Of a stretch of 64,000 nucleotides of DNA, positions 4,155 through 42,289 are shown one piece after another. Numbering within the stretch: the stretch's first letter is position 1; each line of letters opens with the position of its first letter. Position numbers and translations under genes: made by a program. Origin of the DNA: Nitrospira sp. (GTDB taxonomy: Bacteria; Nitrospirota; Nitrospiria; Nitrospirales; Nitrospiraceae); assembly GCA_005116745.1 (NCBI GenBank), contig SWDS01000006.1, positions 545,222 through 609,221 of the forward strand, written 5' to 3'. The notes beneath the pieces are model-generated. The model was not told the DNA's origin. It saw only the letters and a list, made by a program, of their open reading frames with translations, and made no database searches.

Positions 4155-4440
4155 TCTCCCTCCTCACGTTGCGAGTACTATGTTTGCTAATTCCCCCGAC
4201 TTTTCACCCCCTTTTGCACACTCTATATTCTACGCTATAGCCCTCGCCGAGGCCGCTAGGGTCGCTCCCGATGAATCGGCTTTCTCCCCGGTTCGCGCGG
4301 CCTCAATATTTCCCCTCAGGAGAAGCGTCACGGAGAAAGGACGTACCCATGCCTTCCGATCAGTTTCGAACGGTCGCATTCTTTGGCTTTGCTTCAGCCG
4401 CTGTTGTTGAATCAGGATAAAAGAAAGAGGGGATGGGATT

Positions 4441-4517
<77 letters not shown>

Positions 4518-4604
4518 AACGAAGACTAACAAAGCATTGAATGACAAGTCAAGTTGAGGTGTCGCCTGATTGCATTCTCGGAATCACGATGTTAAAGCGA
4601 TAGC

Positions 4605-5546
4605 ATGCGGATTGTCTTTATGGGCACACCCGAATTCGCCGTGCCATCGCTTGAGGCGCTCCTTGGATCAGAGGATCAAGTGGTCGGAGTCGTCACGCAG
4701 CCGGATCGACCGAAGGGAAGAGGTCATCAGCTCGTCGCGCCGCCCGTGAAACTGGTTGCGGAGCGTGCTGGTATTCCTATTCTACAGCCGCTCAAAATTC
4801 GTACACCTGAGTTTTTGCAGGCCCTTTCTGCCTGGCAGCCAGATCTCATCGCGGTCACAGCCTTTGGACGGATTCTGCACACGCCGATTCTTCGGCTCCC
4901 ACCGATGGGCTGCGTGAATGTCCACGGGTCTCTGCTGCCGAAATATCGAGGCGCGGCGCCGGTCCAGTGGGTCGTCATCAATGGTGAGACCAAAACGGGT
5001 ATTACCACGATGCTCATGGATGAAGGAATGGATACCGGTCCCATGCTGCTCCAAGAGGAGTTGGATATCTCGCTTGATGATACGGCCGGGACATTGGCGC
5101 CTCGTATGGCAGAGCTAGGCGGGCAGCTACTCATCAAAACGATCGCTCAGCTGAAGGCGGGGACGTTGGTGTCGAAGAGGCAAGATGATGGACAGGCGAC
5201 CATGGCGCCGCTCTTGAAAAAAGAAGATGGCCTGATCGATTGGACAATGAACGCCACGTCGCTTGCCAATCGGGCACGAGGGCTTTCTCCCTGGCCTGGG
5301 GCCTATACGTTTTTCGGTGAGGAGCGTTGGAACATATGGAAAGCAGTCTCGATTATGGGTGCGACGACCGAGAGACCGGGAACGATCGTCACGGTGAATA
5401 AGCAGGCGATTTTGGTGGCGACAGGCGAGGGCATTCTTGAGATTCATGAAATCCAAACGGCCAATTCGAAACGCATGTCGGTAGTCCAATTCCTGGCTGG
5501 GCACCGAGTCACGGCCGGTATGCAATTGGGTTCACCGGCTGCGTAA
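4605..5546 (+). CDS. fmt: Methionyl-tRNA formyltransferase
   Basis: The 313-residue enzyme transfers a formyl group from 10-formyl-THF to Met-tRNA-fMet. Its N-terminal Rossmann-like domain begins MRIVFMGTPEFAVPSLEALL. The catalytic signature is NVHGSLLPKYRGAAPVQW (catalytic Asn, His and later Asp in the formyltransferase fold) with GITTMLMDEGMDTGPML after it. The C-terminal OB-like domain follows from about residue 205. Length is normal. The usual neighbour def is not in the window; the next gene, rsmB, starts 40 bases downstream, as in many fmt-rsmB pairs. Confidence 0.97.
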   Translation: MRIVFMGTPEFAVPSLEALLGSEDQVVGVVTQPDRPKGRGHQLVAPPVKLVAERAGIPILQPLKIRTPEFLQALSAWQPDLIAVTAFGRILHTPILRLPPMGCVNVHGSLLPKYRGAAPVQWVVINGETKTGITTMLMDEGMDTGPMLLQEELDISLDDTAGTLAPRMAELGGQLLIKTIAQLKAGTLVSKRQDDGQATMAPLLKKEDGLIDWTMNATSLANRARGLSPWPGAYTFFGEERWNIWKAVSIMGATTERPGTIVTVNKQAILVATGEGILEIHEIQTANSKRMSVVQFLAGHRVTAGMQLGSPAA

Positions 5547-5586
5547 CTCTTCTCTTCACAACAGCCGCCATCTCCTTGTTCCAACT

Positions 5587-7008
5587 ATGAGTGACGAAAG
5601 ACCGGTGGGTACTGATGTGCGGGGGCTCTCTCCACGATCTATTGCGCTCTCTATCCTCCTGTCCTGTCAACGAACTGATGACACACTCGATGAGCTGATC
5701 GAACAACGAGCCACATCAATTCCACAGCCCCGTGACCGCTCGCTGGTAATGGAACTGGTGTATGGGACCTTACGGCGACAGGAGACAATTGATTGGAGGC
5801 TTGATGCGGTTCTCGCCAAACCTCTCCACAGATTGCCAATAGTCGTTCAAATATTGCTGCGGCTTGGCGCCTACCAGCTCCTGTTTCTCGATCGTATCCC
5901 TGCTTCCGCAGCGGTGAACGAAACCGTCCTCTTGACGAAGTCCTACGCGAAACAAGTAGGCCGCGATTGGAGTGGGTTGGTGAACGGAGTCCTGCGCAAT
6001 CTTGTTCGTGTGCCGGCGCCACCTTTCCCAGACCCAGTAAGTTATCCGGCTCAATCGTTGTCTATTCGGTATGGAATCCCAATATGGCTGACAGAGCGGT
6101 GGCTCGGCCGAATGGGACTTGAAGAAGCAGAATTGGCTTGTCGAGCAAGCAGTACGGCCCCAGATGTCACTCTGCGAGTGAATGCCAATCGACTCACCAG
6201 GGAAGAGTTTTTGGAGAAGTTGAGGCATGCAGGTATTGCGGCACATCCGACCGCCGTTAGTCCTGTCGGGGTGGTGTTGGAAAAAGGCCAGACTGTCACG
6301 GCGTTGCCAGGGTTTCAGTCTGGCGATTTCTATGTGGAAGATGAAGCGGCTCAACTCATTCCTCGGATCCTTGATCCGCAACCTGGCGAAACCGTGCTGG
6401 ACGCCTGCGCCGCTCCAGGCGGCAAGGCAACGCACCTGGCCGAACTCATGGGTAATCGTGGAACGATTTATGCGGTTGATCGGAAGACTCTCCGCATGGA
6501 CCTCCTTCGACAAAATTGTGGACGGTTGGGCGCGCAGAGCGTCGTGCCGATCGTCGGCGATGTGAGAACACCATCCGAATGGGCCAGGGTGATCACCCGT
6601 GAGCCGAACCTCCACAAGGACCCGCCGCTATTCGATCGGATACTTGTGGATGCCCCGTGTAGTGGGTTGGGTGTGTTGCGCCGACACCCTGAAGCGAAAT
6701 GGCGGAAGGACAGTTCGACGTTCGCCAGGCATCAGGCACTTCAAGCTGAAATCCTTGCCTCAGTGGCTCCGTGCTTGCGACCCGGTGGGGTGCTGGTCTA
6801 TAGTACATGTTCAGCAGAAACCGAAGAAACTGAAGAGGTTGTGAGCAGCTTTTGCAAGGGCCATCACGACTGGACGCATGAATCCGTGGCCCCGTGGCTT
6901 CCTTCTACGGCGCTCCCCTTTGTGACCGTGAGCGGGGCGCTCTCCACCATGGGTAATGATTGTGGAATGGACGGATTTTACGCCGCTCGGTTAAGGAAAA
7001 AGGGGTAA
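5587..7008 (+). CDS. rsmB: 16S rRNA m5C967 methyltransferase RsmB
   Basis: A 473-residue RsmB/Sun protein. Residues about 15-140 are a NusB-like RNA-binding domain (DRSLVMELVYGTLRR, LRLGAYQLLFLDRIPASAAVNE). The C-terminal SAM-dependent domain carries DACAAPGGKATHL (motif I), VDAPCSGLGVLRRHPEAKW (catalytic Cys) and YSTCS (second Cys). It methylates C967 of 16S rRNA. Its stop overlaps the rpe start by one base (TAATG), indicating translational coupling. Confidence 0.96.
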   Translation: MSDERPVGTDVRGLSPRSIALSILLSCQRTDDTLDELIEQRATSIPQPRDRSLVMELVYGTLRRQETIDWRLDAVLAKPLHRLPIVVQILLRLGAYQLLFLDRIPASAAVNETVLLTKSYAKQVGRDWSGLVNGVLRNLVRVPAPPFPDPVSYPAQSLSIRYGIPIWLTERWLGRMGLEEAELACRASSTAPDVTLRVNANRLTREEFLEKLRHAGIAAHPTAVSPVGVVLEKGQTVTALPGFQSGDFYVEDEAAQLIPRILDPQPGETVLDACAAPGGKATHLAELMGNRGTIYAVDRKTLRMDLLRQNCGRLGAQSVVPIVGDVRTPSEWARVITREPNLHKDPPLFDRILVDAPCSGLGVLRRHPEAKWRKDSSTFARHQALQAEILASVAPCLRPGGVLVYSTCSAETEETEEVVSSFCKGHHDWTHESVAPWLPSTALPFVTVSGALSTMGNDCGMDGFYAARLRKKG

Positions 7009-7709
7009 TGGGGAAACCGTTGTACATCGCGCCCTCGATTCTGTCTGCAGATTTCGCACGGTTGGCTGACGAGGTCGCCGCCGTGGAGCGCGCGGGCGCC
7101 GATTTCCTTCACGTGGATGTGATGGACGGCCACTTCGTACCGAATCTGACGGTGGGGCCACCTATTGTGGCAAGCCTGAAGAAAGTCACCAAGTTGCCGC
7201 TTGATGTGCATTTGATGATCACCAACGCTGATGCCTTTATCCCTGAATTTGTGGATGCCGGCGCGGATTATCTCACCGTTCATGTCGAAGCCTGTCCGCA
7301 TCTTCACCGGACGATTCAGCTGATCAAGGAACGCAAGGTCAAAGCCGGTGTGACGCTGAATCCTGCCACGCCGATGTCACTGCTCGAAGAGATCTTGGGC
7401 GAGGTCGATCTCGTCTTAATTATGTCAGTCAATCCAGGCTTCGGTGGGCAGAAGTTTATCCCCTCGGTGCTCAAGAAAATTGCCCAAGCGCGAACCATGC
7501 TGGATCAGATCAACAGCCATGCGCTACTTGAAGTCGACGGCGGCATCAAGGCGGAGAATGCTCGAGAAGTGGTGGCTGCCGGTGCCACGGTCCTGGTGGC
7601 CGGGTCCGCCATTTTCTCTCAACGCGACTACACGGCCACGATCGCGGCTCTGCGAGCAGCCGGAGAAACAGTCGTCTCACCGGCGCGTCGCGCCGCGGGT
7701 CATCGATAG
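7008..7709 (+). CDS. rpe: Ribulose-phosphate 3-epimerase
   Basis: A 233-residue TIM-barrel enzyme that interconverts ribulose 5-phosphate and xylulose 5-phosphate in the pentose phosphate and Calvin routes. Metal and acid-base residues are in IAPSILSADFARL, HVDVMDGHFVPNLT, LDVHLMI and LLEVDGGI, and the phosphate grip is in MSVNPGFGGQ. The start is the ATG that overlaps the rsmB TAA (TAATG). The C-terminus is somewhat longer than usual, ending in an Ala/Arg-rich tail, and pheS begins 11 bases after it. Confidence 0.95.
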   Translation: MGKPLYIAPSILSADFARLADEVAAVERAGADFLHVDVMDGHFVPNLTVGPPIVASLKKVTKLPLDVHLMITNADAFIPEFVDAGADYLTVHVEACPHLHRTIQLIKERKVKAGVTLNPATPMSLLEEILGEVDLVLIMSVNPGFGGQKFIPSVLKKIAQARTMLDQINSHALLEVDGGIKAENAREVVAAGATVLVAGSAIFSQRDYTATIAALRAAGETVVSPARRAAGHR

Positions 7710-7719
7710 GTTATTTCGG

Positions 7720-9285
7720 GTGGATACCTCCGCACTCATCGACAGTCTGCACCCCCTGGAAATCAAAGTGCTCCTGGCCCTGGCCACGCGCCCGTCTGGA
7801 ACTGCTCTGGGCAGCGAACAGTTGGCCGACGCAGCTGAGTTGGAGACGTCTCAACTCAGCATGGCGGTCGAGTGGTTATTAGCCAAGTCGCTCATTGCTG
7901 TGCAGACGGAGACCGTGACACCCATTGTGTCACTGACGAAGGTCGGTGAAGAGTACTACCAGACGACCTCACCCATCGAGCGGGTGTTGGCGGCCGCTCG
8001 TGACGCGACCGGCACGGGAAAACGCTTGACCATTCCCGATTTGCAATCCCAAGACGGACTGGATCCGTCCGACGTCAGCAAGGCGGTGGGTCGACTCAAA
8101 AAAGAAGGCGTGCTCTTGATCATCCAAGGGGGCTGTATTGAAACAACCGGGCGACCAAGCCCGACGGCCGATGCGCTCAGAGCCCTCCTTGGACAGTTGC
8201 ATGAATCGTCGAAGGAACTGGACGGCTTCACGGGAGCCCATCGACAGGTCATCGAAGATTATGCGGTGAAACGTGGGAACGCCAAGGAACCCTTCCGTGT
8301 CGATGAGCGAGTGGCTCGGTCGTTTGTCCTGTCCCAGGACGGCGTGAGCGCGGCCTCACAGCTCCTGACGCAAGGAGTGACGGAGGAAGTCTCACAGTTG
8401 ACTCCCGACTTGTTGAAGGATGGGAGTTGGCGTCAGACGCGCTTGAGAAAGTACACCATCAGTCTGCGCCCGCCTCGTATTGGAACAGGAAAGAAACATC
8501 CCTATCGCGAATTTCTCGATACGGTCAAAACCAAACTTGTGAGCATGGGGTTCCAGGAAATGCGGGGGGCGCTGGTCGAAACCGAGTTCTGGGATATGGA
8601 TGCCCTGTTCATGCCGCAATTCCATCCAGCTCGGGATATTCACGACGTCTATTTCGTTAAGGAGCCCAGCCATGCCACTGCCGTGGACGAGCCGTTCTTG
8701 TCGCGTGTGGCCAAGGTGCATGAGAATGGCGCAGAGACTGGTTCCACAGGCTGGGGCTATTCGTTTGATGTGCATCGGGCTAAACGGTTGGTGTTGCGGA
8801 GCCAGGGCACGGCGGTGTCAGCTCGAAGGCTTGCCGCTTCGCCACAGATCCCCGGGAAGTATTTCTCGATTGCCCGGTGTTTTCGCTATGACCAAGTCGA
8901 CGCCACCCACGCCACGGATTTCTTCCAGGTGGAGGGGATCGTGCTCGGAGAAGACATCAACTTTCGGATGCTGTTGGGGCTCTTGAATTTGTTTGCCCGG
9001 GAAGTGGCGCAGGCGAAGGAAGTGAAGTTCTTGCCAGCCTATTTTCCGTTTACCGAACCGTCGGTCGAGATGCATGTGCGGCATCCACGCCTGGGATGGA
9101 TGGAGCTCGGCGGCGCGGGTCTCTTTCGTTCCGAAGTGACGCTGCCGCTTGGCGTGACGGTGCCGGTCATTGCCTGGGGGTTGGGGCTTGATCGTATGGC
9201 GATGGTGGCGTTGGGCATCCATGACATCCGCGAACTCTTCACCGACAATCTGGAATTGATCCGCACGACCAGAGGATTGTTCTAA
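7720..9285 (+). CDS. pheS: Phenylalanyl-tRNA synthetase alpha subunit, archaeal/eukaryal type
   Basis: About 521 residues with a GTG start chosen just after rpe. Bacterial PheS is usually about 330-350 residues with an N-terminal coiled coil. Here the first ~200 residues instead resemble the winged-helix modules of archaeal and eukaryotic PheS (LEIKVLLALATRPSG; SKAVGRLKKEGVLLI). The class II core shows FHPARDIHDVYFV, the motif around SARRLAASP, FRYDQVDATHATDFFQVEG, and motif 3 in GLGLDRMAMVALGIHDIRE. It forms a heterotetramer with PheT and charges tRNA-Phe. Transfer from archaea or a spirochaete-like donor is the likely origin. Confidence 0.93.
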   Translation: MDTSALIDSLHPLEIKVLLALATRPSGTALGSEQLADAAELETSQLSMAVEWLLAKSLIAVQTETVTPIVSLTKVGEEYYQTTSPIERVLAAARDATGTGKRLTIPDLQSQDGLDPSDVSKAVGRLKKEGVLLIIQGGCIETTGRPSPTADALRALLGQLHESSKELDGFTGAHRQVIEDYAVKRGNAKEPFRVDERVARSFVLSQDGVSAASQLLTQGVTEEVSQLTPDLLKDGSWRQTRLRKYTISLRPPRIGTGKKHPYREFLDTVKTKLVSMGFQEMRGALVETEFWDMDALFMPQFHPARDIHDVYFVKEPSHATAVDEPFLSRVAKVHENGAETGSTGWGYSFDVHRAKRLVLRSQGTAVSARRLAASPQIPGKYFSIARCFRYDQVDATHATDFFQVEGIVLGEDINFRMLLGLLNLFAREVAQAKEVKFLPAYFPFTEPSVEMHVRHPRLGWMELGGAGLFRSEVTLPLGVTVPVIAWGLGLDRMAMVALGIHDIRELFTDNLELIRTTRGLF

Positions 9286-9293
9286 CTCCACAT

Positions 9294-11006
9294 ATGCCTA
9301 CCATCACGATTTTCAAGGACGATTTAGAGTCGCTTCTGACGGGTGAGGACGGTATCGACCGTGGCATTCCGATGGCGCAGTTGGAAGAGTGGCTGATGCT
9401 CGTGAAAGGCGAGCTGAAGGGGCACAATCCGGAAACCGGAGAGTTGCGTATCGAATTGCAAGACAGTAATCGGCCGGATCTCTGGTGTTGCGAGGGGATT
9501 GCCCGACAAATTCGTATCAAGCAGCAAGGCCGGTTGAAGCCGTATGCCTTCTTCGCTGACACACCGACATCGCCGCATCATCTGATCGTGAAGCCTGGCA
9601 TGGAGCAGGTGCGCCCCTATGTGGCAGCTTGTACGGCCAAGGGATATCGGGTGACTGAGAAGGGGTTGGCTCAGCTGATTCAAACTCAGGAAAAGATCGC
9701 CGACATCTTTGGGCGGAAGCGCAAGACCGTCTCCATCGGAATCTACCAACTGCGCAAGATTACCTTTCCCGTGACCTATGAGCTGGTGAAACCGGACGAA
9801 GTGCGGTTTACCCCGCTGGGTATGGAAACGGCGATGACCCTATCGGAAATTCTCATGGTTCATCCCAAGGGGCTGGAGTATGGACCTATTTTGGCCGTCC
9901 AAAGTTTGCTCCCCATCCTTCGAGATGCGAAGGCTCAACCGTTGTCCTTTCCCCCGATTATCAATAGCCGGGAAATCGGAGAGGTACGGGTGGGTGATGA
10001 TGAGCTCTTCGTTGAAGTGACCGGAACAGACCTGCGCATGGTGATTCTGTCGTTGAACATCTTCGCGGCGAATTTGGCCGACCGTGGCGCAACCATCGAG
10101 CCGGTGGAAGTACGGTATCCAACGAGCACGGTGTTGGGCACACGGGTCAAAACGCCTCAAGATTTTGGGAAGCCAGCGACCATTCGGATGAAAGCAATTG
10201 AACAGGCATTGGGCCAGGAGCTCGGCGAGGCAATGGTGAAGCAGGCTCTTGAGGCCTATGGGTATGAGGTGTCGACAGAAAATGGATCAGTGAAGGCAAA
10301 GCTCCCGCCGTACCGCCATGATCTTATGCATACGATGGATGTGGTTGAAGACGTCGCCATGAGTCATGGGTATGCCGAGTTTACCCCTGTCATGCCGGCG
10401 CAATTTACAGTGGGAGGATTATCCGCCATTGAGCAGCTGTCTGATCGATCTCGAGAATTGATGGTGGGACTCGGCTTTCAGGAAATCATTTCGAACATTC
10501 TCGGCTCGCCGGATCAGTATTGCCGTGCTATGCGTCTGGAAGGAACGGAATGGGGGAGGACGGTCGAGGTCGATAACGTCATGTCGCTCAGCTTCTCCTG
10601 CCTCCGACAATGGATGCTGCCCTCACTGCTGCGTATCGAAGCCGCCTCGAGTCGGGCGTTCTACCCCCATCGCCTCTTCGAGGCCGGTGATGTGGCGATT
10701 CCCGACGGGACCCACGAGTTGGGGTCTCGAACGGAAACCATGATCGGCGCCTTGATCGCGCACGCCACCACCCATTTCTCAGAAATCCATTCCTGTCTGG
10801 ACGTGCTGTGTTACTACCTCGGCAAGGACTATAGCCTTGAGCCAGTGCAGCATCCATCTTTTCTGGAAGGGCGTGCCGGCCGCATTCTCGTTTCGGGCAA
10901 GCCGGTCGGCGTCATCGGCGAAGTCCATCCGGAAGTCCTCGAACGTTGGCAGATCTCCATGCCGGTGGTGGCATTCGATCTGAACCTCTCGCAGCTGCTT
11001 TCGTAA
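9294..11006 (+). CDS. pheT: Phenylalanyl-tRNA synthetase beta subunit, archaeal/eukaryal type
   Basis: At 570 residues it is much shorter than the ~800-residue bacterial PheT and lacks the N-terminal OB (EMAP-like) and C-terminal anticodon-binding ferredoxin-like modules. The opening MPTITIFKDDLESLL, the region ELQDSNRPDLWCCEGIARQIR, and a B3/B4 editing module followed by B5 (KAKLPPYRHDLMHTMDVVEDVAMSHG) are the archaeal layout. It follows pheS by eight bases. A second, truncated copy of its last 99 bases lies at 19156 with six mismatches. Confidence 0.93.
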   Translation: MPTITIFKDDLESLLTGEDGIDRGIPMAQLEEWLMLVKGELKGHNPETGELRIELQDSNRPDLWCCEGIARQIRIKQQGRLKPYAFFADTPTSPHHLIVKPGMEQVRPYVAACTAKGYRVTEKGLAQLIQTQEKIADIFGRKRKTVSIGIYQLRKITFPVTYELVKPDEVRFTPLGMETAMTLSEILMVHPKGLEYGPILAVQSLLPILRDAKAQPLSFPPIINSREIGEVRVGDDELFVEVTGTDLRMVILSLNIFAANLADRGATIEPVEVRYPTSTVLGTRVKTPQDFGKPATIRMKAIEQALGQELGEAMVKQALEAYGYEVSTENGSVKAKLPPYRHDLMHTMDVVEDVAMSHGYAEFTPVMPAQFTVGGLSAIEQLSDRSRELMVGLGFQEIISNILGSPDQYCRAMRLEGTEWGRTVEVDNVMSLSFSCLRQWMLPSLLRIEAASSRAFYPHRLFEAGDVAIPDGTHELGSRTETMIGALIAHATTHFSEIHSCLDVLCYYLGKDYSLEPVQHPSFLEGRAGRILVSGKPVGVIGEVHPEVLERWQISMPVVAFDLNLSQLLS

Positions 11007-11884
11007 GTTGGTCACAACTTATCACGTAAAATCGCTTGGCCTAGCCGTCGTACATCGAGTGCAAGAGGGGCTCTCGCTGAGACTCGGGCAACACTCTTCG
11101 TCACCGGTTGGTGTCTCAGGAGTTCCACAAGCAAACCAGCCTTGATACGGCTACCAGACTCTCTCACCTTACAATAGAGTCATCTTCTTGGATTGCACAA
11201 CGCTTGCAAGAGTGTCGAGCATATCGTGTAGCAGCCTCCACAGGGTGATACTGGTGGAACTACCGTTAGGTATCTGACAATCATCAATCTGCAACAGGCC
11301 GGAGCGATGATGTCTGTGAACCTGTGGCAGGAGTGGCAGGCACGAGGGCGCAGGGTACGGGGGAGTACACCTATGACAATGGGAGCTAAAGTGATGCGTC
11401 TGTTGACGCAGGTGAGTCACTTGCTGAAGGCAGGGAAAAGCAGTGCGGAGCGATTGCCCCTGAAATGAATCTGGCAATATGTCTGCGAGTGGAGCGCCAT
11501 ACGGGTCACCAGCTATAACTAGCCCACCACTCCGCCCTCTCGATCTCTGTCCAGAGTCACCCTAATCGACGAATTTATGTTCAACCACGACTTAAGCTGG
11601 TACTTCACCATACCGATATATAACGAGGGCGCCTGTACTTTGATGCCTAAGGGTTCCCTATGCCGTACATGACCATGACAGAGTGACCGAGTCGACAGCG
11701 ACATTGAGCCCTCCCATGTCATGCAAATGGCTCAGGGCTGGCTTAGTTCATAATCAAGCCGGCCGATGCAACATGCACGGGGTAACGATGGGCGCAGTAT
11801 CGATTCTGCCATACCCTGCATGTCAGTGAGGCCGGGCAAGACGTACGACAATTCTTTCACGACCTGTCTCATTGATTGGCATTC
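11007..11884. other. Long intergenic stretch, one weak small ORF
   Basis: No gene is convincing in these 880 bases. The best frame is 11307-11468 on the plus strand, 53 residues with a helical C-terminus (VMRLLTQVSHLLKAGK), but it lacks a good ribosome-binding site. The region may hold the promoter of the histidine kinase. Confidence 0.4.
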
Positions 11885-14374
11885 ATGAAGAACGATCAGG
11901 GGTTGTACAAGACACTTCTTTCTCGCAGCCATCTCGCATGGAAGCACAACCTCCGCTTCCGCATCACCGTTGGGCTCTCACTCCTTCTCGGAACCATTAT
12001 GGCCATCGCAGCCGGCATCCGGATCGCGGAGATCGAGCAGACTCTTAAGGATTCCACACACGCCCGTGCTTTGGCCATCAGCCGTACGTTTACGATCATC
12101 GGATCGGCCGCCGTCGTCGACAATCTGTATCGGATCCAAGAAGCACTCGGCACGTATCGTGAGGACCCGAATATTCTCCACATCGACATACTTGATCCTG
12201 ATTTCATGATCATTTCTTCAACCGATGCCACACGTATCGGCCGCACCCTTCACGACCCGTATCTAGACCAGGCGCAGCTCACCCGCAGGGAAGTCGCCAC
12301 TCAGACAACAGCACCAGATGGGACTCCCATGCTCGTTGCCATCGATCCCTTGCGCAATGGCTCTGAAATTTCCGCTTGGGTGCGAATCGAGTTCTCACTC
12401 GCTCGCCTGAACCAGGAGGTCGCCCACGAGCTTTACCAGGCGGTTTTTGTCACAGTGTTTCTGATCGGAGCCGGAGTGATCAGTATTCAGCTCAGCATCC
12501 GGAAAATGTCTTCGGTTTTCCAGGATACCGCCGGTGAACTTCAGGCGACATTGCATGTTCTGAGTCAAACCGATTCATCTTCTACCACCGACCCTGCCGC
12601 GTTGCCGCCGTCTGATCCCAGCTCTGCTCACGATTCCGGCGGGGAACTCGAACATCTGCTCAGTCTCATCAACCGCACGACTCACCTCGTCACTGCGCAA
12701 GCGCAGATCGTGGCAAGTCGTACCGCTGATCTTTCCACGACGGTTGAGGAACTCACCATCGCCAGAAACGATGCACAGGCCGCCAACCGATCCAAGTCAG
12801 AGTTTCTGGCGAACATGAGTCATGAAATTCGAACTCCGATGAACGGCGTGATGGGTATGACCGAACTCCTGCTTGCCACACAGCTCACTGAACGGCAACG
12901 GTACATGGCTGACACGATCCGTCGGTCCAGTACGGCCTTGCTCGACATCATCAATGACATTCTGGATTTTTCAAAAATCGAAGCCGGCAAGCTTAATTTG
13001 GAGCAGGTCGAGTTCAGTCTCCGGAAAACCGTTGAAGATGCTGTGGAGCTCTTTGCCGACCCCGTTGGCAAAAAGGAATTGGAGCTGACCAGCTTCGTGC
13101 CGGAGGAGATACCCGATGCCGTCATCGGTGATCCAACGCGATTTAAACAAGTGCTGGTGAATCTCCTCGGCAATGCCGTGAAATTTACCGAGCGAGGGGA
13201 CGTCTCTGTACAGGTGTCCTGTCTCGAGCAGGAGGGCGACCGGGTGATGGTGAAGTGCGAGGTGCGGGACACCGGCATCGGGATCGCTGAGGAGGCACAG
13301 AAGCGCTTGTTTACAGCGTTTTCTCAAGCAGATAGCTCAACCACCCGACGGTTCGGCGGTACAGGACTCGGTTTGGCCATTGTTCGACAACTGGTGTCCT
13401 TGATGGGCGGTGAGGTCGGGCTCAACAGCGTCCTTGGCCAAGGCTCCACGTTCTGGTTCACGGTGCAACTGGGATACGATCCCCAACATCAGTCACAGGA
13501 CACCACGGCTATAGGATCACTCGCGGGTACGCGAGTTCTCATCGTGGATGACAACGCCATCAATCGGTTTATTTTGGAAGCCCAGCTGCACATCTGGGGA
13601 GCCGATCCTATCAGTGTCGACAGTGCCAAAGCTGCCATGGATCGCCTGAAACAGACCGTGCGAGACGGTACGCCCATCGACCTGGCCATCCTTGATATCC
13701 AGATGCCGGACATGGATGGCATCATGCTCGCCCGAGCCCTGAAAGCTGACCCGGATCTCCGGACGATCCCCCTGCTGGCGCTCAGTTCCATTGAGCCACA
13801 GGGCGCTGCTGGCGTGACAGACGCCCCGATATTTTTCGCGTGGCTTCGAAAACCGGCTCGGCAGTCCCTGCTGCTAGAGTGTTTGTTGCACCAACGATAT
13901 GCCATGTCAGAGACCGCTCCACACCATGCATCCGCGCCATCCTCTTCCACACCATTCCGTGGGCGGATCTTGCTCGCCGAAGACAACCTGGTCAACCGAG
14001 AAGTAGCGATGGCGATGTTGGAATCCTTGGGCTGCTGCGTCGATCTAACGGAGAACGGGCGTCAAGCCGTTGAGGCTATGGCACAGCAGTCCTATGATCT
14101 TGTCTTGATGGATTGTCAGATGCCTGAGCTGGATGGATTTGCCGCGACGGCCGCGATCCGCCATCACGAAGCCTCCATTGCTGGCGGACATCATGTCCCC
14201 ATCATTGCCTTGACGGCCCATGCCATGGAAGGCGACCGGGAGAATTGCCTGGCAGCTGGCATGGACGACTATCTTTCGAAACCATTTACCAAGGAAGGCT
14301 TGTCCTCCGTCCTGCACCGGTGGCTGGTGGTGCAGCCGACCGAACGTCTGCCGGATAATTCCCGTCATCGATGA
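11885..14374 (+). CDS. Hybrid sensor histidine kinase with two receiver domains
   Basis: About 829 residues from ATG 11885; a TTG at 11876 is in frame. It has TM1 at about 27-45, a periplasmic sensor of about 140 residues, TM2 at about 186-206, then a coiled-coil signalling helix. HisKA contains [15 protein letters not shown] with phospho-His near 313. HATPase_c has the N box ([13 protein letters not shown]), DTGIGI and GGTGLGLAI. Two receivers follow: Asp near 604 ([13 protein letters not shown]) and Asp near 743 ([13 protein letters not shown], switch Lys in DYLSKPF). The layout is BarA/ArcB-like and normally ends in an HPt domain; here the frame stops at TGA and an HPt-like sequence continues in another frame. 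No cognate regulator is adjacent. The signal is unknown. Confidence 0.93.
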
Positions 14375-14717
14375 GTCGGCTTGGGAGAATCTGCCGGCTA
14401 TGGAGCAAGCAGACCATCCACACATCGTACAGAAGGCGTTTCCGCTCTACCTCTCGGATTCCAGGCAGTTGCCTAAAAGGATTCAGGAGGCCATTCACAT
14501 CGGCGATGCGATGGCACTTCATGCAGGAGTCCAGCAGGTGAAAACCGTCAGCGGTCAGGTTGGAGTGCTGACCTGCTTCTTTCAGCCTGGTGCAATTGCG
14601 CGACGTGCCGATCAACAGCGGTTGGATAAGGCGGCGAACCTGCTTGCTCCACCTGGGGAGAGCATAGAGCCGGCCTGTCGATGGCTCGAAGACAGGATTC
14701 GCCGGCACGCTACCTGA
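14355..14717 (+). pseudogene. Out-of-frame fossil of the kinase's HPt domain
   Basis: A frame overlapping the kinase stop encodes about 120 residues reading [59 protein letters not shown] and ACRWLEDRIRRHAT. This is the usual anatomy of an HPt module at the end of hybrid kinases. The expected phospho-acceptor motif AHxLKSSSAxVGA appears as VQQVKTVSGQVGV, with the His replaced by Gln, and the following helix is scrambled (TCFFQPGAIA). It has no start of its own, so it looks like a domain lost by frameshift and now decaying. Confidence 0.65.
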
Positions 14718-14928
14718 CTGTTTGCGCCAGGAGTACTGACGATTTCTCACGTACACCATTCGGCCTACGACCAGAAATCCAGTGCTCCAGAGGATGCTGA
14801 AGCGATGCTGGGGAAAGACTTCCCGTAAGGCTACCCTGGGTGACCGGCTGTTGTGTGTGTAGTCGGGATGCAGGGAGCGTGAACGATGTGAGAACGGCGC
14901 TGGGAAGCTGTTTGAATAGGGAGTGACG

Positions 14929-15846
14929 TTACTTAAACTCAAACTCCACAGTGACTGTTCCACGAACTGGAACCTGAATCTCTTTGTTCAGAATTCCTAC
15001 GGTCTCGTGCCAGACAGAGATCGTATGTTGTCCCGGGGGCAACCCCATTATTCGAAATTGTCCCGTCTCATTGGTCTGGTCAAACAATGGATGGTTGAAG
15101 ACATATCGATAAGCCCGCATGAACTTGTGGACATTGCACGTGACAAGATGCAGGCCTTCTCTCTTCAGTGGTTTCCGTATAGGGCTTCCTCCGGCCACCA
15201 ACGCAACATTCAACACCGTTCGGCTGTCGAGCGTGATGTTTGTATTGTGCAGGACCGGATCATCGTTCGTAATTTCCGCCGGCGCACCACTTCGTAATGC
15301 CGCCACGTGCGGATAGAACACGCAGCGCTTATTTTGCACAGTCGAACTGTGAGCAGGGCCGTCATCCACCTGTTCTATCCTTGAACTCACATGGACGATC
15401 GCGTCACGGAGGCCATGGGTCGTCGGATCAATCGTGAGTGGTGTCACGGTCACGACTTGACCGCATATGTCGCTGTCTCGAGCTACTTCCATTTGTATCG
15501 GTGGGGGAACAGACCCTCGATACGTAACACGCCCAACGACCACTGAATCAGTTGAAGACGTGTCCTCTTTTGCTGCAGATCTACTGTGTTGAACGGTCGT
15601 GAGTTCCGTAGACGTGGGGAATGGCCTCATCTGTGGAGTGTCGGCCGTCACATCATGTGTGCGTGGAGACACAGAGATCTGTTGATCGACCAAGGGAGAA
15701 ACAGGCTTGTCTCCATCGTGTCGAGACTGAGTTGAGCCTGTTGCCAGGGCACACTCGGTGGTACTTCCGATAAGCCAGACAACGAGACCGATAACCAGCA
15801 GACAGCGCCGATGAGAGCACGCTGGATTGGACTCGGGAATTACCAT
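14929..15846 (-). CDS. Secreted cupredoxin-like protein with C-terminal carboxypeptidase-regulatory-like fold
   Basis: A 305-residue exported protein with strong AAGGAG before the ATG. Residues about 15-35 form a signal peptide (CLLVIGLVVWLIG). A low-complexity linker runs to about 95. The rest resembles MauL-like cupredoxins: VVVGRVTYRG opens the domain, and type-1 copper ligands can be picked out as His in NDDPVLHNTNI and Cys, His and Met in TCNVHKFM. The end (GQFRIMGLPPGQHTISVWHE) is like a carboxypeptidase regulatory domain. A periplasmic electron carrier or metal-binding protein is plausible, given the divergent heme proteins next door. Function is inference; fold assignment is fairly firm. 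Confidence 0.72.
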   Translation of the reverse strand: MVIPESNPACSHRRCLLVIGLVVWLIGSTTECALATGSTQSRHDGDKPVSPLVDQQISVSPRTHDVTADTPQMRPFPTSTELTTVQHSRSAAKEDTSSTDSVVVGRVTYRGSVPPPIQMEVARDSDICGQVVTVTPLTIDPTTHGLRDAIVHVSSRIEQVDDGPAHSSTVQNKRCVFYPHVAALRSGAPAEITNDDPVLHNTNITLDSRTVLNVALVAGGSPIRKPLKREGLHLVTCNVHKFMRAYRYVFNHPLFDQTNETGQFRIMGLPPGQHTISVWHETVGILNKEIQVPVRGTVTVEFEFK

Positions 15847-16563
15847 CTCACACTCCTTGAGCTGTTGAGCACATTAGAAATGTGCTCAACAAGATTACAC
15901 ACACCATCCATTTTCCATTTAAGCGAATCGGCGAACGATGGGGTTGGAATTTCATCAAAAGGGGAAGGGTGAAGCATACTGCGCAATAACCTGGAGTGAC
16001 GGTTCTTGTCTTACTCGGATCAGTTCGACCATACCAAATAGGACCACAATCACAAGACATACGTACAAACTGAACCGTGATGATACACGGGTATGGAATG
16101 TGGACCCATGGTCAGGATATGCCACAGGGGGTGTGTCTCCTACATCTTCAACTTGTGTGTTTACCATGCTGGGAAGAGCAAAGCCGCCAAGATGGACGCG
16201 AGAAGGCTCACACTTAGGCGGTAAGACGATGCATGGCGTGCGATTCCGGACCTCATCTACTTCGGATTGCACGCTTGCTTGTCTGAGCATGGAACACGCT
16301 TCTGGGCTGTGGTGGGGCCACCTGAATTCACGATCAGTCCGAAGGACGCCCCGTCCCCGAATCCGGATGCCTTTCCGGTGGATGTCGTCCAGAAAGCGGC
16401 GCGCCGTCCACCACTCGCTGCATTTGTAAAAATACTTGTTAAGTAGAAGTAGTTTGCTACGGTACCTCTCAGGCTCAGGTCTGGTTGAGTGCACGACCAT
16501 CATGATTGAACAGACTGTGACCGACAAGTCGACTGCAGAGAGCCCGAGAGAAGGAGGAGCCTA
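15847..16563. other. Intergenic stretch with a possible short coding remnant
   Basis: The region separates the divergent cupredoxin and porin-cytochrome genes, so it should hold both promoters. A plus-strand frame at 16225-16446 lacks an ATG but encodes 73 residues of natural-looking composition (DLIYFGLHAC; VVGPPEFTIS; DAFPVDVVQKAARRPP), which may be a gene remnant. A 20-residue frame at 16502-16564 ends in TAATG overlapping the next start and could be a coupled leader. Both calls are weak. Confidence 0.35.
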
Positions 16564-18081
16564 ATGAGAGGAGGCTGGACGATTGGAATGGCCGCGATGC
16601 TCACTATCGTGGTGGGCGGGGGATTAGTAGGGTCGGTCGAGGAGGCTGGCGCCATTCCAGCGTTTGCTCGCAAGTACGAGGTGAATTGCAACGTATGCCA
16701 TGCACCGGTGCCGAGATTAAATCCGTACGGCGAGCGGTTCATGGAAAACGGGTATCAACTCCCTGGGACAGAAGACGGCGGCATTATCGGCAAGAAGAAG
16801 CTGGGTGACTTGACGATCAATGACGTCGGAAACTTTGTCGGATTCCGGGTGCGCGGGCAGTCGACGTTCCGAGTCGCCGATTACTCTGCTACTGGTTCAG
16901 CATCGGTCGGTAGTGCGGTGGTCGGGAAACCTCACGACAAAGCGGAATTCATTCGTCCCGATTTTCTGAGCATGTTCGTGGCGGGCACAGTCTATAAGAA
17001 TATCGGCTTCTATGTCGATCTCGACTCTATCGAATCATTGAATGGAGGGAATCTCTTCACGAATCGTATGTTCCTTACGTTCAACAACATTGGCAGCCAG
17101 TTGGGTGCCAAGAATTGGGCTCATATCCGAGTTGGCCGGTTCGATCCCTCTTCATTTTCATCCTTTCCCCTTTTACGTACCCAACTAGATGTGATCTTCA
17201 GTGATATGGCGCTCATCAACAATGGTGGACCGGTCGGTGCGCCCATCCCGTTCCAGGCTGCCCCTATCCTCAATCGGTTCGATCTTACCTCCTTTGCCCA
17301 TGTGCACAAGTTCTACGGGCTCTACAATCACAATGGGTTTCCCATCTCGCCATTCCTGCCGAGTGGGTATAACGGATTCGGGGATGGGATTGAAATCCAT
17401 GGACGTCCGTTTGGGGATTGGTTTTTCTACCAGGCCGGGGTGATCAACGGTTCGGGGGAAAATTTCAGGCTTGTTCCAGCGATGGGCGATACAAACCGTA
17501 TGAAAGATGCCTATGGCATGATCCGGTTTGACTTTGCCAGGGCGGATTATTTCAGCGCAAGCCTGTCGGGGTTTGGGTATTTTGGCAACAACAATTTGAT
17601 ACTCCCACTGGGGCCTGGGCAACTGGCGCAGGTTTCACAACGCCAGGTTGGCGTATCGGCGTACATTCGATATAAGATGATTGATCTCCATGCTGCTTAC
17701 TCGTTCGACAAGATATCGAACTTGCCAGTGCTTCCTCCCGGCTTCTTTGATGATACAGCGAGCGGCTACTCGGTTGCGTTGGACGTACGGGCTACTGAAC
17801 AATTGCTCCTCTCCACGCGGTATGACTTTCTAGATGGCGGAGGGGTTCAGAACCAAACCGTTCAAAATTTTATTCCTGCCACCGTGCCAATCTTGCTTCC
17901 ACTAACTACGATTCAGCGAACGACTACCTCGGTGGTTGGGGTTCAGCTCAAGTACTATATTCGACCCAATATGGCAGTAATGATCCGCAACGACTTTAAT
18001 GTCTTAGGCTCTCAGGGCGGAGTCATGCCGGAGCGAAATCTGCGCAATTTCTTTACTCTTGGCTTCGATCTCATTTTCTAA
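16564..18081 (+). CDS. Outer-membrane beta-barrel protein with N-terminal c-heme motif
   Basis: A 505-residue exported protein with a signal peptide over about residues 1-31 (TIGMAAMLTIVVGGGLVG, cleavage near AGA-IPAFA). A single heme c site CNVCH lies at residues 42-46, in the context YEVNCNVCHAPVPRLNPYGERF. The remaining ~430 residues alternate hydrophobic and aromatic strands (FSASLSGFGYFG, VGVSAYIRYKM, LLLSTRYDFLDGG) and end in phenylalanine (GFDLIF), the outer-membrane insertion signal. It may conduct electrons at the outer membrane with its diheme neighbour 26 bases downstream. The family is common in Nitrospirota genomes; substrates are not known. Confidence 0.82.
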   Translation: MRGGWTIGMAAMLTIVVGGGLVGSVEEAGAIPAFARKYEVNCNVCHAPVPRLNPYGERFMENGYQLPGTEDGGIIGKKKLGDLTINDVGNFVGFRVRGQSTFRVADYSATGSASVGSAVVGKPHDKAEFIRPDFLSMFVAGTVYKNIGFYVDLDSIESLNGGNLFTNRMFLTFNNIGSQLGAKNWAHIRVGRFDPSSFSSFPLLRTQLDVIFSDMALINNGGPVGAPIPFQAAPILNRFDLTSFAHVHKFYGLYNHNGFPISPFLPSGYNGFGDGIEIHGRPFGDWFFYQAGVINGSGENFRLVPAMGDTNRMKDAYGMIRFDFARADYFSASLSGFGYFGNNNLILPLGPGQLAQVSQRQVGVSAYIRYKMIDLHAAYSFDKISNLPVLPPGFFDDTASGYSVALDVRATEQLLLSTRYDFLDGGGVQNQTVQNFIPATVPILLPLTTIQRTTTSVVGVQLKYYIRPNMAVMIRNDFNVLGSQGGVMPERNLRNFFTLGFDLIF

Positions 18082-18107
18082 TTTAAATAGATGAGGGAGA
18101 CTTCTTC

Positions 18108-18881
18108 ATGGGATTGATGCGAGCGACCGTTCGAGTCTGTGTGGTAAGTCTCGTGGCGAGCAGTCTGTTCAGCGGTTCGGCGGAGGCATTGAAGCCCAAA
18201 GAAGCAACAGGACAGGGAAATAAGAAAGGGAAACAGATTTACGAGCAAAGTTGCCTGTTCTGCCATGGAGTCAATGGGAAGGGTGATGGGCCGGCGGCAT
18301 TCTTCAACGCGGCCTATATGGCGCCGAGACCGACGGATTTTACCGTCGGTAGCTTTAAGTTCCGATCGACTCCATCAGGCGAGCTGCCGATGGACCAGGA
18401 CCTGTTCCGTACCGTGACGCGGGGTGTGCCCGGCTACATGCCGTCGTTCCGCAGCCTGACCGAGCAGGAGCGGTGGAGTGTAATCAGCTACATCAAGACA
18501 TTCTATCCCGGGTTCCAGAAGGAAAAGCCGGAGTCGATTCCATTGACTGTGTCGCCTGTTCCGTCGACTCCGGAGAGCATCGAGCGCGGTCGCATGGCCT
18601 ATTTCGACTCCGGCTGCCAAGGGTGCCATGGGGATGATGCGGATGGAGAGGGGACCTTGGCTCGTGCGAAGGAATTGATGGATCAGAGCGGATTGCCGAT
18701 CAGGCCTGGAGATTTGACGAGTCGGTCCTCATTGAAAAACGGCTCGGCGCCACAAGATTTGTATCGTTCGATCATGACAGGCTTAGACGGAACTCCTCAT
18801 CCATCGTTCCTGGGTCAGTATGCTAATAAGGAAGAAGAAATCTGGCATCTTGTGAATTATCTTCTCTCTCTCTCCGAATAG
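18108..18881 (+). CDS. Periplasmic diheme cytochrome c
   Basis: A 257-residue exported protein with a signal peptide to about residue 27 (VCVVSLVASSLFSGSAEA). Two class I cytochrome c domains follow: CLFCH at 49-53 with a Met ligand candidate in YMPSF near 105, and CQGCH at 170-174 with HPSFLGQY downstream. Each domain ends in the usual helix (WSVISYIKTFY; WHLVNYLLSLSE). It lies directly behind the heme-bearing porin and probably shuttles electrons in the periplasm. It may act with that porin; the terminal partner is not in the window. Confidence 0.88.
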   Translation: MGLMRATVRVCVVSLVASSLFSGSAEALKPKEATGQGNKKGKQIYEQSCLFCHGVNGKGDGPAAFFNAAYMAPRPTDFTVGSFKFRSTPSGELPMDQDLFRTVTRGVPGYMPSFRSLTEQERWSVISYIKTFYPGFQKEKPESIPLTVSPVPSTPESIERGRMAYFDSGCQGCHGDDADGEGTLARAKELMDQSGLPIRPGDLTSRSSLKNGSAPQDLYRSIMTGLDGTPHPSFLGQYANKEEEIWHLVNYLLSLSE

Positions 18882-19026
18882 GTCGATTGTTGAGAAAGTT
18901 GGCTGGTATTAGCCGTATCTTGTGTGGCCAGTTTTGTTCCAATCAAGGCCAGATCTCCCTCCCGGTCTGAAGAGAGTCGTCTAACTAAGCCTCGCAACAG
19001 TCACCGCAGAGCAAAATGGGACAGCT

Positions 19027-19150
19027 TGAGCTAGCCCGGGTTCCGTGGACACCAAGTTAAGACTCACTGAGCCGTCGCTTGAACTCTAACGGGCTCAGAT
19101 AACCAAGGTTCTGATGGAGCCGGTGGCGATTATAGAACCCTATTCTCATC
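19027..19150 (-). mobile_element. Remnant of an IS3-family insertion sequence (3' end)
   Basis: On the minus strand 19140-19057 encodes the last 27 residues of an IS3-type transposase OrfB: GFYNRHRLHQNLGYLSPLEF, then KRRLSES and a stop. This is the conserved end of the integrase core. Just beyond it TGAGCTAGCCCGGG (from 19027) resembles the terminal inverted repeat of IS3 elements. The rest of the element is missing; the remnant ends abruptly where the pheT fragment begins. Confidence 0.8.
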
Positions 19151-19155
19151 GGTGG

Positions 19156-19269
19156 AAGCCGGTCGGCGTCATCGGCGAGGTCTATCCGGAAGTCCTCGAA
19201 CGTTGGCAGATCTCCATGCCGGTGGTGGCGTTCGACGTGAACCTGTCGCAGCTGATAGCGCTTGGGTAG
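19156..19269 (+). pseudogene. Duplicate 3' fragment of archaeal-type pheT
   Basis: Positions 19156-19254 match 10899-10997, the end of pheT, at 93 of 99 bases. The encoded peptide is KPVGVIGEVYPEVLERWQIS followed by MPVVAFDVNLSQL, after which it diverges to IALG and a TAG at 19267-19269. Most mismatches are synonymous third positions, so the fragment derives from a once-functional, slightly divergent pheT. It abuts an IS3 remnant and converges on rplT. Confidence 0.85.
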
Positions 19270-19294
19270 GGACTGCCCCTAGAGCGATGGGGCG

Positions 19295-19332
19295 TGAAAG
19301 GGGGAGACGACACGTTGTCGGCTCCCCTTTCA
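19295..19332 (-). terminator. Hairpin downstream of rplT
   Basis: The left arm TGAAAGGGGGAGACGACA and right arm TGTCGGCTCCCCTTTCA form a stem of about 17 pairs with one bulge and one mismatch. It lies just past the rplT stop. There is no U-run on either strand, so it may act as a bidirectional or factor-assisted terminator or an RNA 3'-end stabiliser. Confidence 0.5.
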
Positions 19333-19357
19333 AACGATATTCGACTAGAGCGTAGAG

Positions 19358-19726
19358 TTATGCGGCGACAGGAGTCAGGTGTTGCTTGGCGAGGCCGCAC
19401 AACTTTTCAAAGCCCGCCGAATCTTTGATCGCCATATCCGACAAAATCTTTCGATCCAACAACACATTCGCTTTCTTCAATGCGTTGATGAACCGGCCGT
19501 AGGTCAGCCCTTGAGCCCGAACGCCAGCGCTGATGCGGGCAATCCACAATTGCCGGAAGTCTCGCTTCCGATTCTTGCGGCCCGTATAGGCATATGTCTG
19601 CCCCTTGTCGACGCTTTCTGTCGCTGAACGGAAGAGCCGACTCTTTCCGCCGTACTGGCCTGATGCCAGCTTAATCCGCTTCTTTCTCCGTTGCCGAGTT
19701 TTTGGCCCACCCTTAGCGCGAGGCAT
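19358..19726 (-). CDS. rplT: 50S ribosomal protein L20
   Basis: A 122-residue basic protein beginning MPRAKGGPKTRQRRKKRIKL, with RKRDFRQLWIARISAGVRAQGLTYGRFINALKKA, in pieces the standard L20 core. It binds 23S rRNA early in 50S assembly and in many bacteria represses its own operon. It is the last gene of the minus-strand thrS-infC-rpmI-rplT run. The usual following pheS-pheT are absent here and lie at 7.7-11 kb in archaeal form. Confidence 0.97.
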   Translation of the reverse strand: MPRAKGGPKTRQRRKKRIKLASGQYGGKSRLFRSATESVDKGQTYAYTGRKNRKRDFRQLWIARISAGVRAQGLTYGRFINALKKANVLLDRKILSDMAIKDSAGFEKLCGLAKQHLTPVAA

Positions 19727-19779
19727 AATTCATTACTCCTTTAAGGTCCTGAGACTCCTGCCATGAAATCATTGTCGCT

Positions 19780-19974
19780 CTATGCGTACGGGATCAGCCG
19801 GTTCAACGACGTGGTGACTGTCGGATCGACGACCGTGGACCCGCTCAGGCGGCGCTTTCGGTCGTGCCGCTTGCTGGTCAGTATGTGCCGCTTACCCGCC
19901 TTGCGGCGGACAATTTTTCCGCTTCCGGTCTTGGCAAATCGCTTGCTTGTCCCTTTATGGGTTTTCATTTTCAT
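19780..19974 (-). CDS. rpmI: 50S ribosomal protein L35
   Basis: A 64-residue L35: [20 protein letters not shown] at the start and [13 protein letters not shown] in the middle. The start at ATG 19974 is chosen because family members begin there and AAAGGAA lies just upstream; the frame continues 14 codons further without support. It sits between infC and rplT in the standard order. Confidence 0.96.
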
Positions 19975-32267: not shown

Positions 32268-33422
32268 TGTTTGCGCACTGGACATGCTGGCTTTGGACGA
32301 TGGTGGGGGCTGGTTTCCTGGGCTGTGATCACCGATCTTCGTGCGCAGATGACTGAGCTCCGGGCCTCGGTGTTGGAGGCCTGTGAAGGGGTTGTCGGGA
32401 AGCGGATCGTGACTCCCACGGAACAGAATGGGGAGGTGCCGCTCGACAATCCAGAGAAGCTAGTCCGGATCAAGGCCGTAGAAAGCGAAGTGGCCGTGAT
32501 CGCGGAACTTCGTGCACAGATTGCTGAACTCCTGGCCCTGTCTGCACAGGGCAGTGAGCAGGTTGTCGAGAAGCAGGTGGAGACTCCCGCTGAACAGATG
32601 GTCGTGCAGAATGGAGACGTGCCGGTTGAAATGATCAGCGCACACACCGGGGATCTGGTCCAGGCCGGTGCTATTGAGCCGTCGGATGAGGGACAAGCGG
32701 TCGGCGAGTCGCCCGATGACCTGAAACACATCCGTGGGGTCGGGCCGGCGTTAGAACGGTTCCTGCACAAGCGGGGCGTCTTCTGGTTCAGCCAGGTGGC
32801 GACCTGGAACCAAGCAGACATCGACAAATTCGAGTTTCTCTTACCCAACTTTGGGGGACGCATCCAACGAGAGAGCTGGGTGCGCAGCGCACAGGTCGAG
32901 TACTACAAGAAATATAAGCAGTGGCTGGGCGACGGCGAGCCCCCGAGTGAGAGCCCCGATGTTCGGGCGCAGATGGCTGAGCTTCCAGTTGTGTCTTCAC
33001 AGGTTGGTGAGAAGGTTGTCGAGATGCGGGTCGAGACTCCCGCTGAACAGATTGTCGTGCAGAATGGAGATGTGTCGGTTGAAACGATCAGCGCATATAC
33101 CGGGGATCTGGACCAGGTCGGGGTCATGGAGCCGTCGGAGGAGGGGCAAGCGGTCGGCGAGTCGCCCGATGACCTGAAACACATCCGCGGGGTCGGGCCG
33201 GCGTTAGAACGGTTTCTGCACAAGCGGGGCGTCTTCTGGTTCAGCCAGGTGGCAACCTGGAGTCACGCGGACATCGACAAATTCGAGTTCCTCTTGCCCA
33301 ACTTTGGTGGGCGCATCCAGCGAGAGAACTGGGTGCGCAGTGCCAGGGTCGAGCATTACAAGAAGTATAAGCAGTGGCTAGGCGACGATGGACCCACAAG
33401 TACGGCGCCGGATGCACACTAA
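32268..33422 (+). CDS. Membrane-anchored protein with tandem helix-hairpin-helix repeats, probable frameshift
   Basis: ATG 32268 opens MFAHWTCWLWTMVGAGFLG, a membrane segment, but this frame stops at 32360. From about 32325 the rest continues in another frame as a hydrophilic protein of about 360 residues. A one-base indel in a G run would join them (GFLG-WAVITDL). The body has two nearly identical units of 151 residues, each with a coiled-coil/acidic stretch (VETPAEQ, VQNGDV) and a flap-endonuclease-like helix-hairpin-helix domain (DDLKHIRGVGPALERFL; FLLPNFGGRIQRE), plus a partial third at the start. Such HhH domains occur at the tails of NuoE and other proteins. The function is unknown. Confidence 0.7.
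   Translation, partial: CLRTGHAGFGRWWGLVSWAVITDLRAQMTELRASVLEACEGVVGKRIVTPTEQNGEVPLDNPEKLVRIKAVESEVAVIAELRAQIAELLALSAQGSEQVVEKQVETPAEQMVVQNGDVPVEMISAHTGDLVQAGAIEPSDEGQAVGESPDDLKHIRGVGPALERFLHKRGVFWFSQVATWNQADIDKFEFLLPNFGGRIQRESWVRSAQVEYYKKYKQWLGDGEPPSESPDVRAQMAELPVVSSQVGEKVVEMRVETPAEQIVVQNGDVSVETISAYTGDLDQVGVMEPSEEGQAVGESPDDLKHIRGVGPALERFLHKRGVFWFSQVATWSHADIDKFEFLLPNFGGRIQRENWVRSARVEHYKKYKQWLGDDGPTSTAPDAH
32562..33387 (+). repeat. Tandem coding repeat, two units of 453-bp period
   Basis: 32562-32934 and 33015-33387 align without gaps at roughly nine bases in ten, offset by 453 bases (151 codons). Similarity continues weakly upstream of each unit, and 32334-32450 is a partial, more diverged copy. 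The high identity implies recent duplication or gene conversion. Confidence 0.85.
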
Positions 33423-37413: not shown

Positions 37414-37902
37414 ATGTCATTCTACGCGAAGAATGGTGCGAAACTGTTCCTGCGTAACGGCTTAATGGGGATTGCACTCGTGGTCATGGTGCCATCCGTA
37501 GGGCTTGCAGAAGAGGTTCAAGAGCCCAAGAGCATCAGAATGACCTGTGGAAGCTGTCCCGATGGGTATGCGACGACCGGTGTCACCCAAGCTCCGGAAA
37601 TCTGCAAAGACGGCGATCCGACGCTCGTTCAATGTGTGCCGTTGGGAGCCAATATGCTGGGTGTGTGCGGATCCTGTCCTGAGGGGTATGCCGAAATTGG
37701 TGGTTCCTCAGTGCCCGCTCGGTGCGGGACCAAGGATGGTGGCAGGCTGTCGCAATGCCAGTTGAGGAAAATGGAGCAGAATTTTCCGGACTCGACCCAG
37801 GGTTTTAAGAGGTGTCCTCCTGACTGCGGCAGTGCGGCTCAGCCTGGTCAAGGGACGCTTTCGTCCCCGCCGAAGTATCAACAGATGCCGGAGGGCAAGT
37901 AG
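37414..37902 (+). CDS. Secreted cysteine-rich protein inserted between ruvA and ruvB
   Basis: 162 residues from ATG 37414, four bases after the ruvA stop and with GGAAGGGGG upstream. Residues 1-32 look like a signal peptide ([17 protein letters not shown]). Two copies of a Cys motif follow, [12 protein letters not shown] ... C ... C and [12 protein letters not shown] ... C ... C, each with four Cys that could form disulfides. A short tail carries two more Cys (RCPPDCG). The family is not recognised. It is tightly packed in the operon, so it is probably co-expressed, though a DNA-repair role is unlikely for an exported protein. Confidence 0.75.
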
Positions 37903-37918
37903 GGATGGGTGTCGTATC

Positions 37919-38923: not shown

Positions 38924-39084
38924 ACCTCGGGCCTTCCAACGTTTCAAGCTCCTGATATCCAAGCGCTATCCTTGCAATAGATTCAATCGTTCCTGTAGAA
39001 TTCCTGACTTGTTTCCATGATCTACTATCCCTGACGGGGATGGGAAATCCCTCATGCAAGTAGGTGTCCGAGGCGAGACTCAGC

Positions 39085-40161: not shown

Positions 40162-40163
40162 CC

Positions 40164-41261: not shown

Positions 41262-41268
41262 GGGAATT

Positions 41269-42282: not shown

Positions 42283-42289
42283 CGCCAGT

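Follow-up and report, generated by a model that had tools for sequence, protein, structure and literature searches.

A displaced pheT 3′ end beside rplT in a Nitrospira genome, probably stranded by a homologous-plus-illegitimate insertion

Displaced gene ends and insertion hotspots in other bacteria

The original paper on icd/icdC at prophage e14 of Escherichia coli K-12 is said to be that of Hill et al. in 1989. In that arrangement the displaced end is 165 bp long and carries 12 nucleotide changes and two conservative amino acid changes (PMC11148124). The locus described here lies in a 64,000-nucleotide stretch of the 3.86 Mb genome of a Nitrospira sp. (contig SWDS01000006.1, positions 545,222 to 609,221; hereafter the window), and it is similar in that a housekeeping gene gains a new 3′ end together with an insert, with the displaced end, here 128 nt, persisting on the far side. 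It differs in that e14 is a prophage integrated at the site (PMC11148124), whereas here no integrase was found among the scanned cargo proteins, and the insert consists at its left end of DNA that relatives carry after pheT and at its right end of a broken insertion sequence (IS).

Other systems show partial likenesses. First, homology-facilitated illegitimate recombination has been proposed for the T6SS effector-immunity arrays of Vibrio cholerae, and is cited there for Rhs tips too (PMC5361080); a homologous anchor and a non-homologous join add DNA and push the old end downstream, as may have happened here, although the arrays hold whole immunity genes with possible use and our locus a dead scar of ~38 codons. 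Secondly, the C-terminal displacement of Rhs proteins (PMC2935791) likewise pairs variable 3′ tips with older tips left orphaned downstream. Thirdly, core defence hotspot 1 of Pseudomonas aeruginosa resembles the present locus in the acquisition of genes near pheS, pheT and rplT; ihfA and a proline tRNA also occur there (PMC10250203), whereas the hotspot in this genus lies between convergent pheT and rplT genes. The closest analogues are icd/icdC with prophage e14, and the end displacement of Rhs or T6SS genes. A literature search returned nothing on Nitrospira pheT/rplT, and nothing relevant by title on Nitrospira pheT.

The pheT relic and its native neighbours

A copy of the pheT end lies beside rplT, and we consider it probable that this relic is the resident's original 3′ end of pheT, left at its ancestral position when a homologous-plus-illegitimate insertion stranded it. 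The features that bear on this are as follows.

9294–11006, + strand: functional pheT, encoding a 570-aa PheRS beta of archaeal type (TIGR00471), with last codons LLS and stop ('B' type)
10793–10997, + strand: likely homologous crossover zone, the 5′ part of pheT being that of the compact lineages and the tail of B type (from the tree of pheT 1–1500 and segment identity)
11007–11198, no strand assigned: B segment, 192 nt, found directly after pheT (G017, G006) or after a pheT relic (G013) at 81–86%
11876–14374, + strand: cargo, hybrid histidine kinase carrying two receiver domains (Pfam)
14929–15846, − strand: cargo, 305-aa protein with a weak CarboxypepD_reg match under the curated cut-off
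16564–18081, + strand: cargo, 505-aa protein, by eye a possible porin, without Pfam or NCBIfam match
18108–18881, + strand: cargo, cytochrome c protein in which two stretches match cytochrome c (Pfam)
19023–19141, − strand: truncated IS3-family end (last ~27 orfB codons and the IS terminus), recognised from seven related copies and broken inside the IS at 19141
19142–19269, + strand: relic, the putative displaced original pheT 3′ end of compact ('A') type, starting at about codon 531 and closed by its own TAG stop
19270–19357, no strand assigned: native spacer between pheT and rplT, which matches compact relatives and contains a terminator-like inverted repeat
19358–19726, − strand: rplT, followed on the same strand by rpmI, infC and thrS (from translations); the unmoved flank

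The functional PheT scores 458 bits against TIGR00471 (cut-off 283) and pheS precedes its gene; we take the gene names, including rplT, rpmI, infC and thrS, from the translations. A repeat search of the window pairs 10899–10997 with 19156–19254 as a 99-nt direct repeat, with 93 identical bases (94%). Because a DNA search of the genome with 18882–19357 returned only itself and pheT (E = 3.2e-37), the resemblance is far above chance, and both searches confirm the match given in the preliminary description. Four of the six mismatches are synonymous and the rest are H545Y and L563V, which agrees with its statement that the changes are mostly synonymous and bears out its view of the relic as a pheT end once under coding constraint. 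Residue 545 is histidine in all 55 tallied PheT sequences and tyrosine in the relic; a further 16 sequences fell outside the motif filter through differences at other residues, and all 16 also have HPEV. L563V is a common natural variant, with valine in 33 of the 55 sequences. Elsewhere in the window (32498–33250) there are two 300-nt direct repeat copies, 87% alike, within a 383-aa open frame.

The relic is longer than the repeat. Homology to seven related IS copies (each from a different genome, 80–86%) stops at 19141 in all seven, and pheT of six relatives (G055, G030, G028, G029, G009 and G052) aligns to the window from 19142 on, so the relic was refined to 19142–19269, or 128 nt with its own TAG at the end. 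A small out-of-frame indel near 19148–19156 breaks the frame, and the relic is a non-functional scar of ~38 codons of an essential gene. Its best functional pheT end is a near-tie between G026 and G004 (108/121 each) and its own genome (107/121).

The preliminary description had proposed that the junction be compared in related genomes, and the comparison set comprised 79 genomes of the genus, our own included, with PheT in 74 and rplT in 73. At this site in relatives pheT adjoins rplT: the two genes are convergent and ~90 bp apart in four compact genomes (G059, G078, G016 and G026), whose junctions match the relic plus spacer at 89% over 197–202 nt. The relic thus retains its native downstream neighbour while the uninterrupted junction is present in these four relatives, as in an icdC-like scar. 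The earlier appeal to the frequent position of pheST next to rplT holds in part, in that the relatives' junctions place pheT once against rplT here, but the familiar bacterial order, with rplT and pheST co-directional, is absent, pheT being archaeal-type and convergent. Nor has pheST moved away, as was also suggested; pheT and rplT are parted by an insert of ~8.1 kb, and the functional gene was given a new 3′ tail.

The other suggestion made at that stage was a second pheT that decayed in place. A full copy, tandem or horizontally acquired, of which an IS-related deletion later left only the end, would account for the coding constraint in the relic and for the IS fragment that abuts it. However, a search with the whole PheT protein revealed no full copy beside rplT in any of the 79 genomes, only relics or single copies, and this reading was rejected; the relic, spacer and rplT correspond to the single-copy compact junction, and the IS is broken internally rather than at its terminus, from which a typical IS-adjacent deletion runs. 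We regard this history as quite improbable.

The insert, its two ends and its flanks

The insert that keeps pheT and rplT apart spans 11007–19141 (8135 nt). On its left, pheT ends in LLS and stop, compared to ..GLG and stop in three compact relatives and ..ALG and stop in G026. The change to the PheT tail is of a few residues only, unlike that of Rhs proteins, whose tips are toxin domains. Full-length matches to the functional pheT tail plus the next 192 nt occur only in G017, G006 and G013, which have the B region in common for ~620 nt, and the first bases of the B segment have shorter matches after pheT in G062, G058, G001, G021 and G015. We note that pheT of G017 is split over two contigs (L095 and L131, with codons 1–63 and 108–570 and an N run at one break), likely reflecting assembly trouble or a rearrangement. 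Relatives of the histidine kinase are present in many genomes, elsewhere than at pheT, and the cargo from 15000 to 18890 is rare, with matches, all partial, in nine other genomes of the 79. No donor carrying the complete insert was found, and there is no Rfam match at gathering score within 10800–19800.

The right end of the insert is the IS3-family fragment, which reaches 21.5 bits against Pfam rve_2 (PF13333), slightly under the cut-off of 22; the related copy in G064 (L205) has an orfA of 96 aa and an orfB of 251 aa and is of IS3 type by eye. The joint at 19141/19142 is non-homologous, its two sides sharing no more than one or two bases and so almost no microhomology, whereas a few such bases are commonly described at illegitimate joints. 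This junction is known from the assembly, and its exact sequence is absent from the searched genome contigs, a search that may not have covered our own genome, so we have weighed whether it is an assembly artefact. This is very improbable, as six of 99 bases distinguish the relic from the functional end, the relic runs on into the native spacer and rplT, the IS fragment occurs once in the genome, and there are similar scars in four other genomes.

The flanks of the insert are both of the compact lineage, because maximum-likelihood trees place both pheT 1–1500 and the rplT-thrS block with compact genomes. For pheT 1–1500 (G017 not in the tree) this genome (G000) groups with G078 (support 97), G059 (93) and G016 (80), and for the rplT-thrS block (G078 not in the tree) with G059 and G016 (support 100). 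The background region 37900–43100 places it with G059 and G078 (support 99), and the rplT-thrS clade of G000, G059 and G016, which sits on a long branch, conflicts with this; the block has clearly moved between species. That movement would fit a reversed history, in which the ancestor was expanded, a compact haplotype running from the pheT end to thrS came in from the rplT side and joined the IS illegitimately, and the relic is the foreign part. This is possible although unlikely, since pheT 1–1500 also groups with the compact genomes, and the distance between G000 and G059 in the block (~0.034) is near that of the background (~0.045), as expected under inheritance from a compact ancestor. Further to the left, the segment from fmt to pheS (window 4400–9290) is 97% like G078 and 81–90% like nine other relatives compared, for most of which background identity is 94–96%; judged by these identities it is a separate recombination tract, and the locus is generally mosaic.

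Under the history that we favour, with the relic as the stranded resident end, we infer that the cell received DNA from a strain whose region downstream of pheT was expanded, and that this DNA paired with pheT. A crossover within roughly the last 200 nt of the gene would have provided a foreign but functional tail, and the far end of the donor DNA, broken inside an IS3-family element, would have been joined without homology to the resident gene around codon 531, leaving the essential gene intact and the old end as a non-functional scar. The mechanism would be homology-facilitated illegitimate recombination, which is recognised by a first end in homologous sequence, here with resident flanks and an other-lineage tail and with the crossover point approximate, and by non-homologous joining at the other. 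Such a homologous crossover and non-homologous join would together explain why the flanks are compact, the tail foreign, the IS broken and the essential gene intact. What weighs against it are a crossover placed within a zone rather than at a point, the failure to find a donor and the near-absence of microhomology at the joint, and in a mosaic locus events may have followed a more complicated order.

Recurrent insertion between pheT and rplT

The gap between pheT and rplT is a recurrent insertion site in the genus. It was measurable on one contig in 65 genomes, and setting aside G029 (rplT in the same direction) and G024 (first part of pheT only) leaves 63 informative convergent genomes, of which 31, G059, G078, G016 and G026 among them, have gaps of 2–146 nt, eight of 221–379 nt and 24 of 448–8351 nt; it is these 24 with 0.45–8.4 kb, and the four more genomes with pheT-end relics, from which the recurrence is seen. 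The gap cargo (L094, L096, L099, L101, L097, L093 and others) includes Rhs-repeat proteins with DUF4279, an AAA/DUF4276 pair, a HEPN-like protein (weak, under cut-off), a CAAX protease and an alpha/beta hydrolase. G031 (L097) has a second partial rplT just after pheT, ~79% identical over 53 codons, which is possibly another gene-end scar at the hotspot.

A profile of the 3′ 600 nt of pheT, built from 69 sequences and searched against 49 intervals or contig-end stretches, detected pheT-end relics in G000, G013, G074, G008 and G015, with best E values per genome from 2e-31 to 4.5e-4. In G013, G074 and G008 the relic follows by ~10–25 nt a small module encoding a 76-aa protein, preceded in G013 and G008 by a 77-aa protein. 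Among functional pheT ends, the G074 and G008 relics are closest to that of their own host (58/67 and 56/70), and the G013 relic to that of G004 (85/92, own 83). Because the G013 relic is of B type and is followed by the B segment, this genome carries a newer insertion atop an older one. In G015, pheT is separated from a decayed relic of compact type, which has a terminator-like spacer, by a Rhs-type island resembling the one in G055, although the two halves are on different contigs.

The 76-aa protein beside three of the relics matches no family in Pfam or NCBIfam. Its homologues are present in 23 of the 79 genomes, and the genes for the 77-aa and 76-aa proteins are found as a pair at dispersed loci (L173–L185). 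Of its best 13 copies ten are away from pheT, and direct repeats flank three of those ten (L180, L182 and L183). General targeting of gene ends by the module finds no support at L180 and L182, whose ORF lists contain no recognisable duplicated gene end.

These relics also bear on whether an element used the pheT 3′ end as an attachment site and, like e14 in icd, restored the gene with its own copy, its integrase being lost afterwards. The architecture resembles icd/icdC (PMC11148124), and the relics of G013, G074 and G008 likewise fall inside the last ~150 nt of pheT, with the module stopping shortly before them. However, the resolvable relics (those other than G015), all of which start within that ~150 nt, do so at differing bases; the insert begins in DNA that other lineages carry after pheT and finishes in a broken IS; and neither the insert (no PF00589 match) nor the inspected cargo proteins encode an integrase. 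Because none of the 64 tyrosine-recombinase (PF00589) matches listed in eight genomes is at pheT/rplT, a tyrosine-integrase element is less likely than a homologous crossover with a non-homologous join, and we view site-specific integration as improbable.

More speculatively, the last ~150 nt of pheT might be a preferred breakage or recombination site in the genus, reused independently to add accessory genes and renewing the pheT end each time, either through an unrecognised recombinase acting in trans or because only such breaks spare the gene; we hold this general form to be rather unlikely. The junction in this genome is a recombination scar and a hotspot marker, not a new system, and it preserves the polarity and boundaries of one gene-acquisition event. 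The scars in four other genomes suggest that the end of an essential synthetase gene can be swapped repeatedly while the adjacent space gains accessory genes (Rhs, AAA/DUF4276, cytochrome, sensor), and the locus offers a natural example in which hotspot formation without an integrase can be tested.
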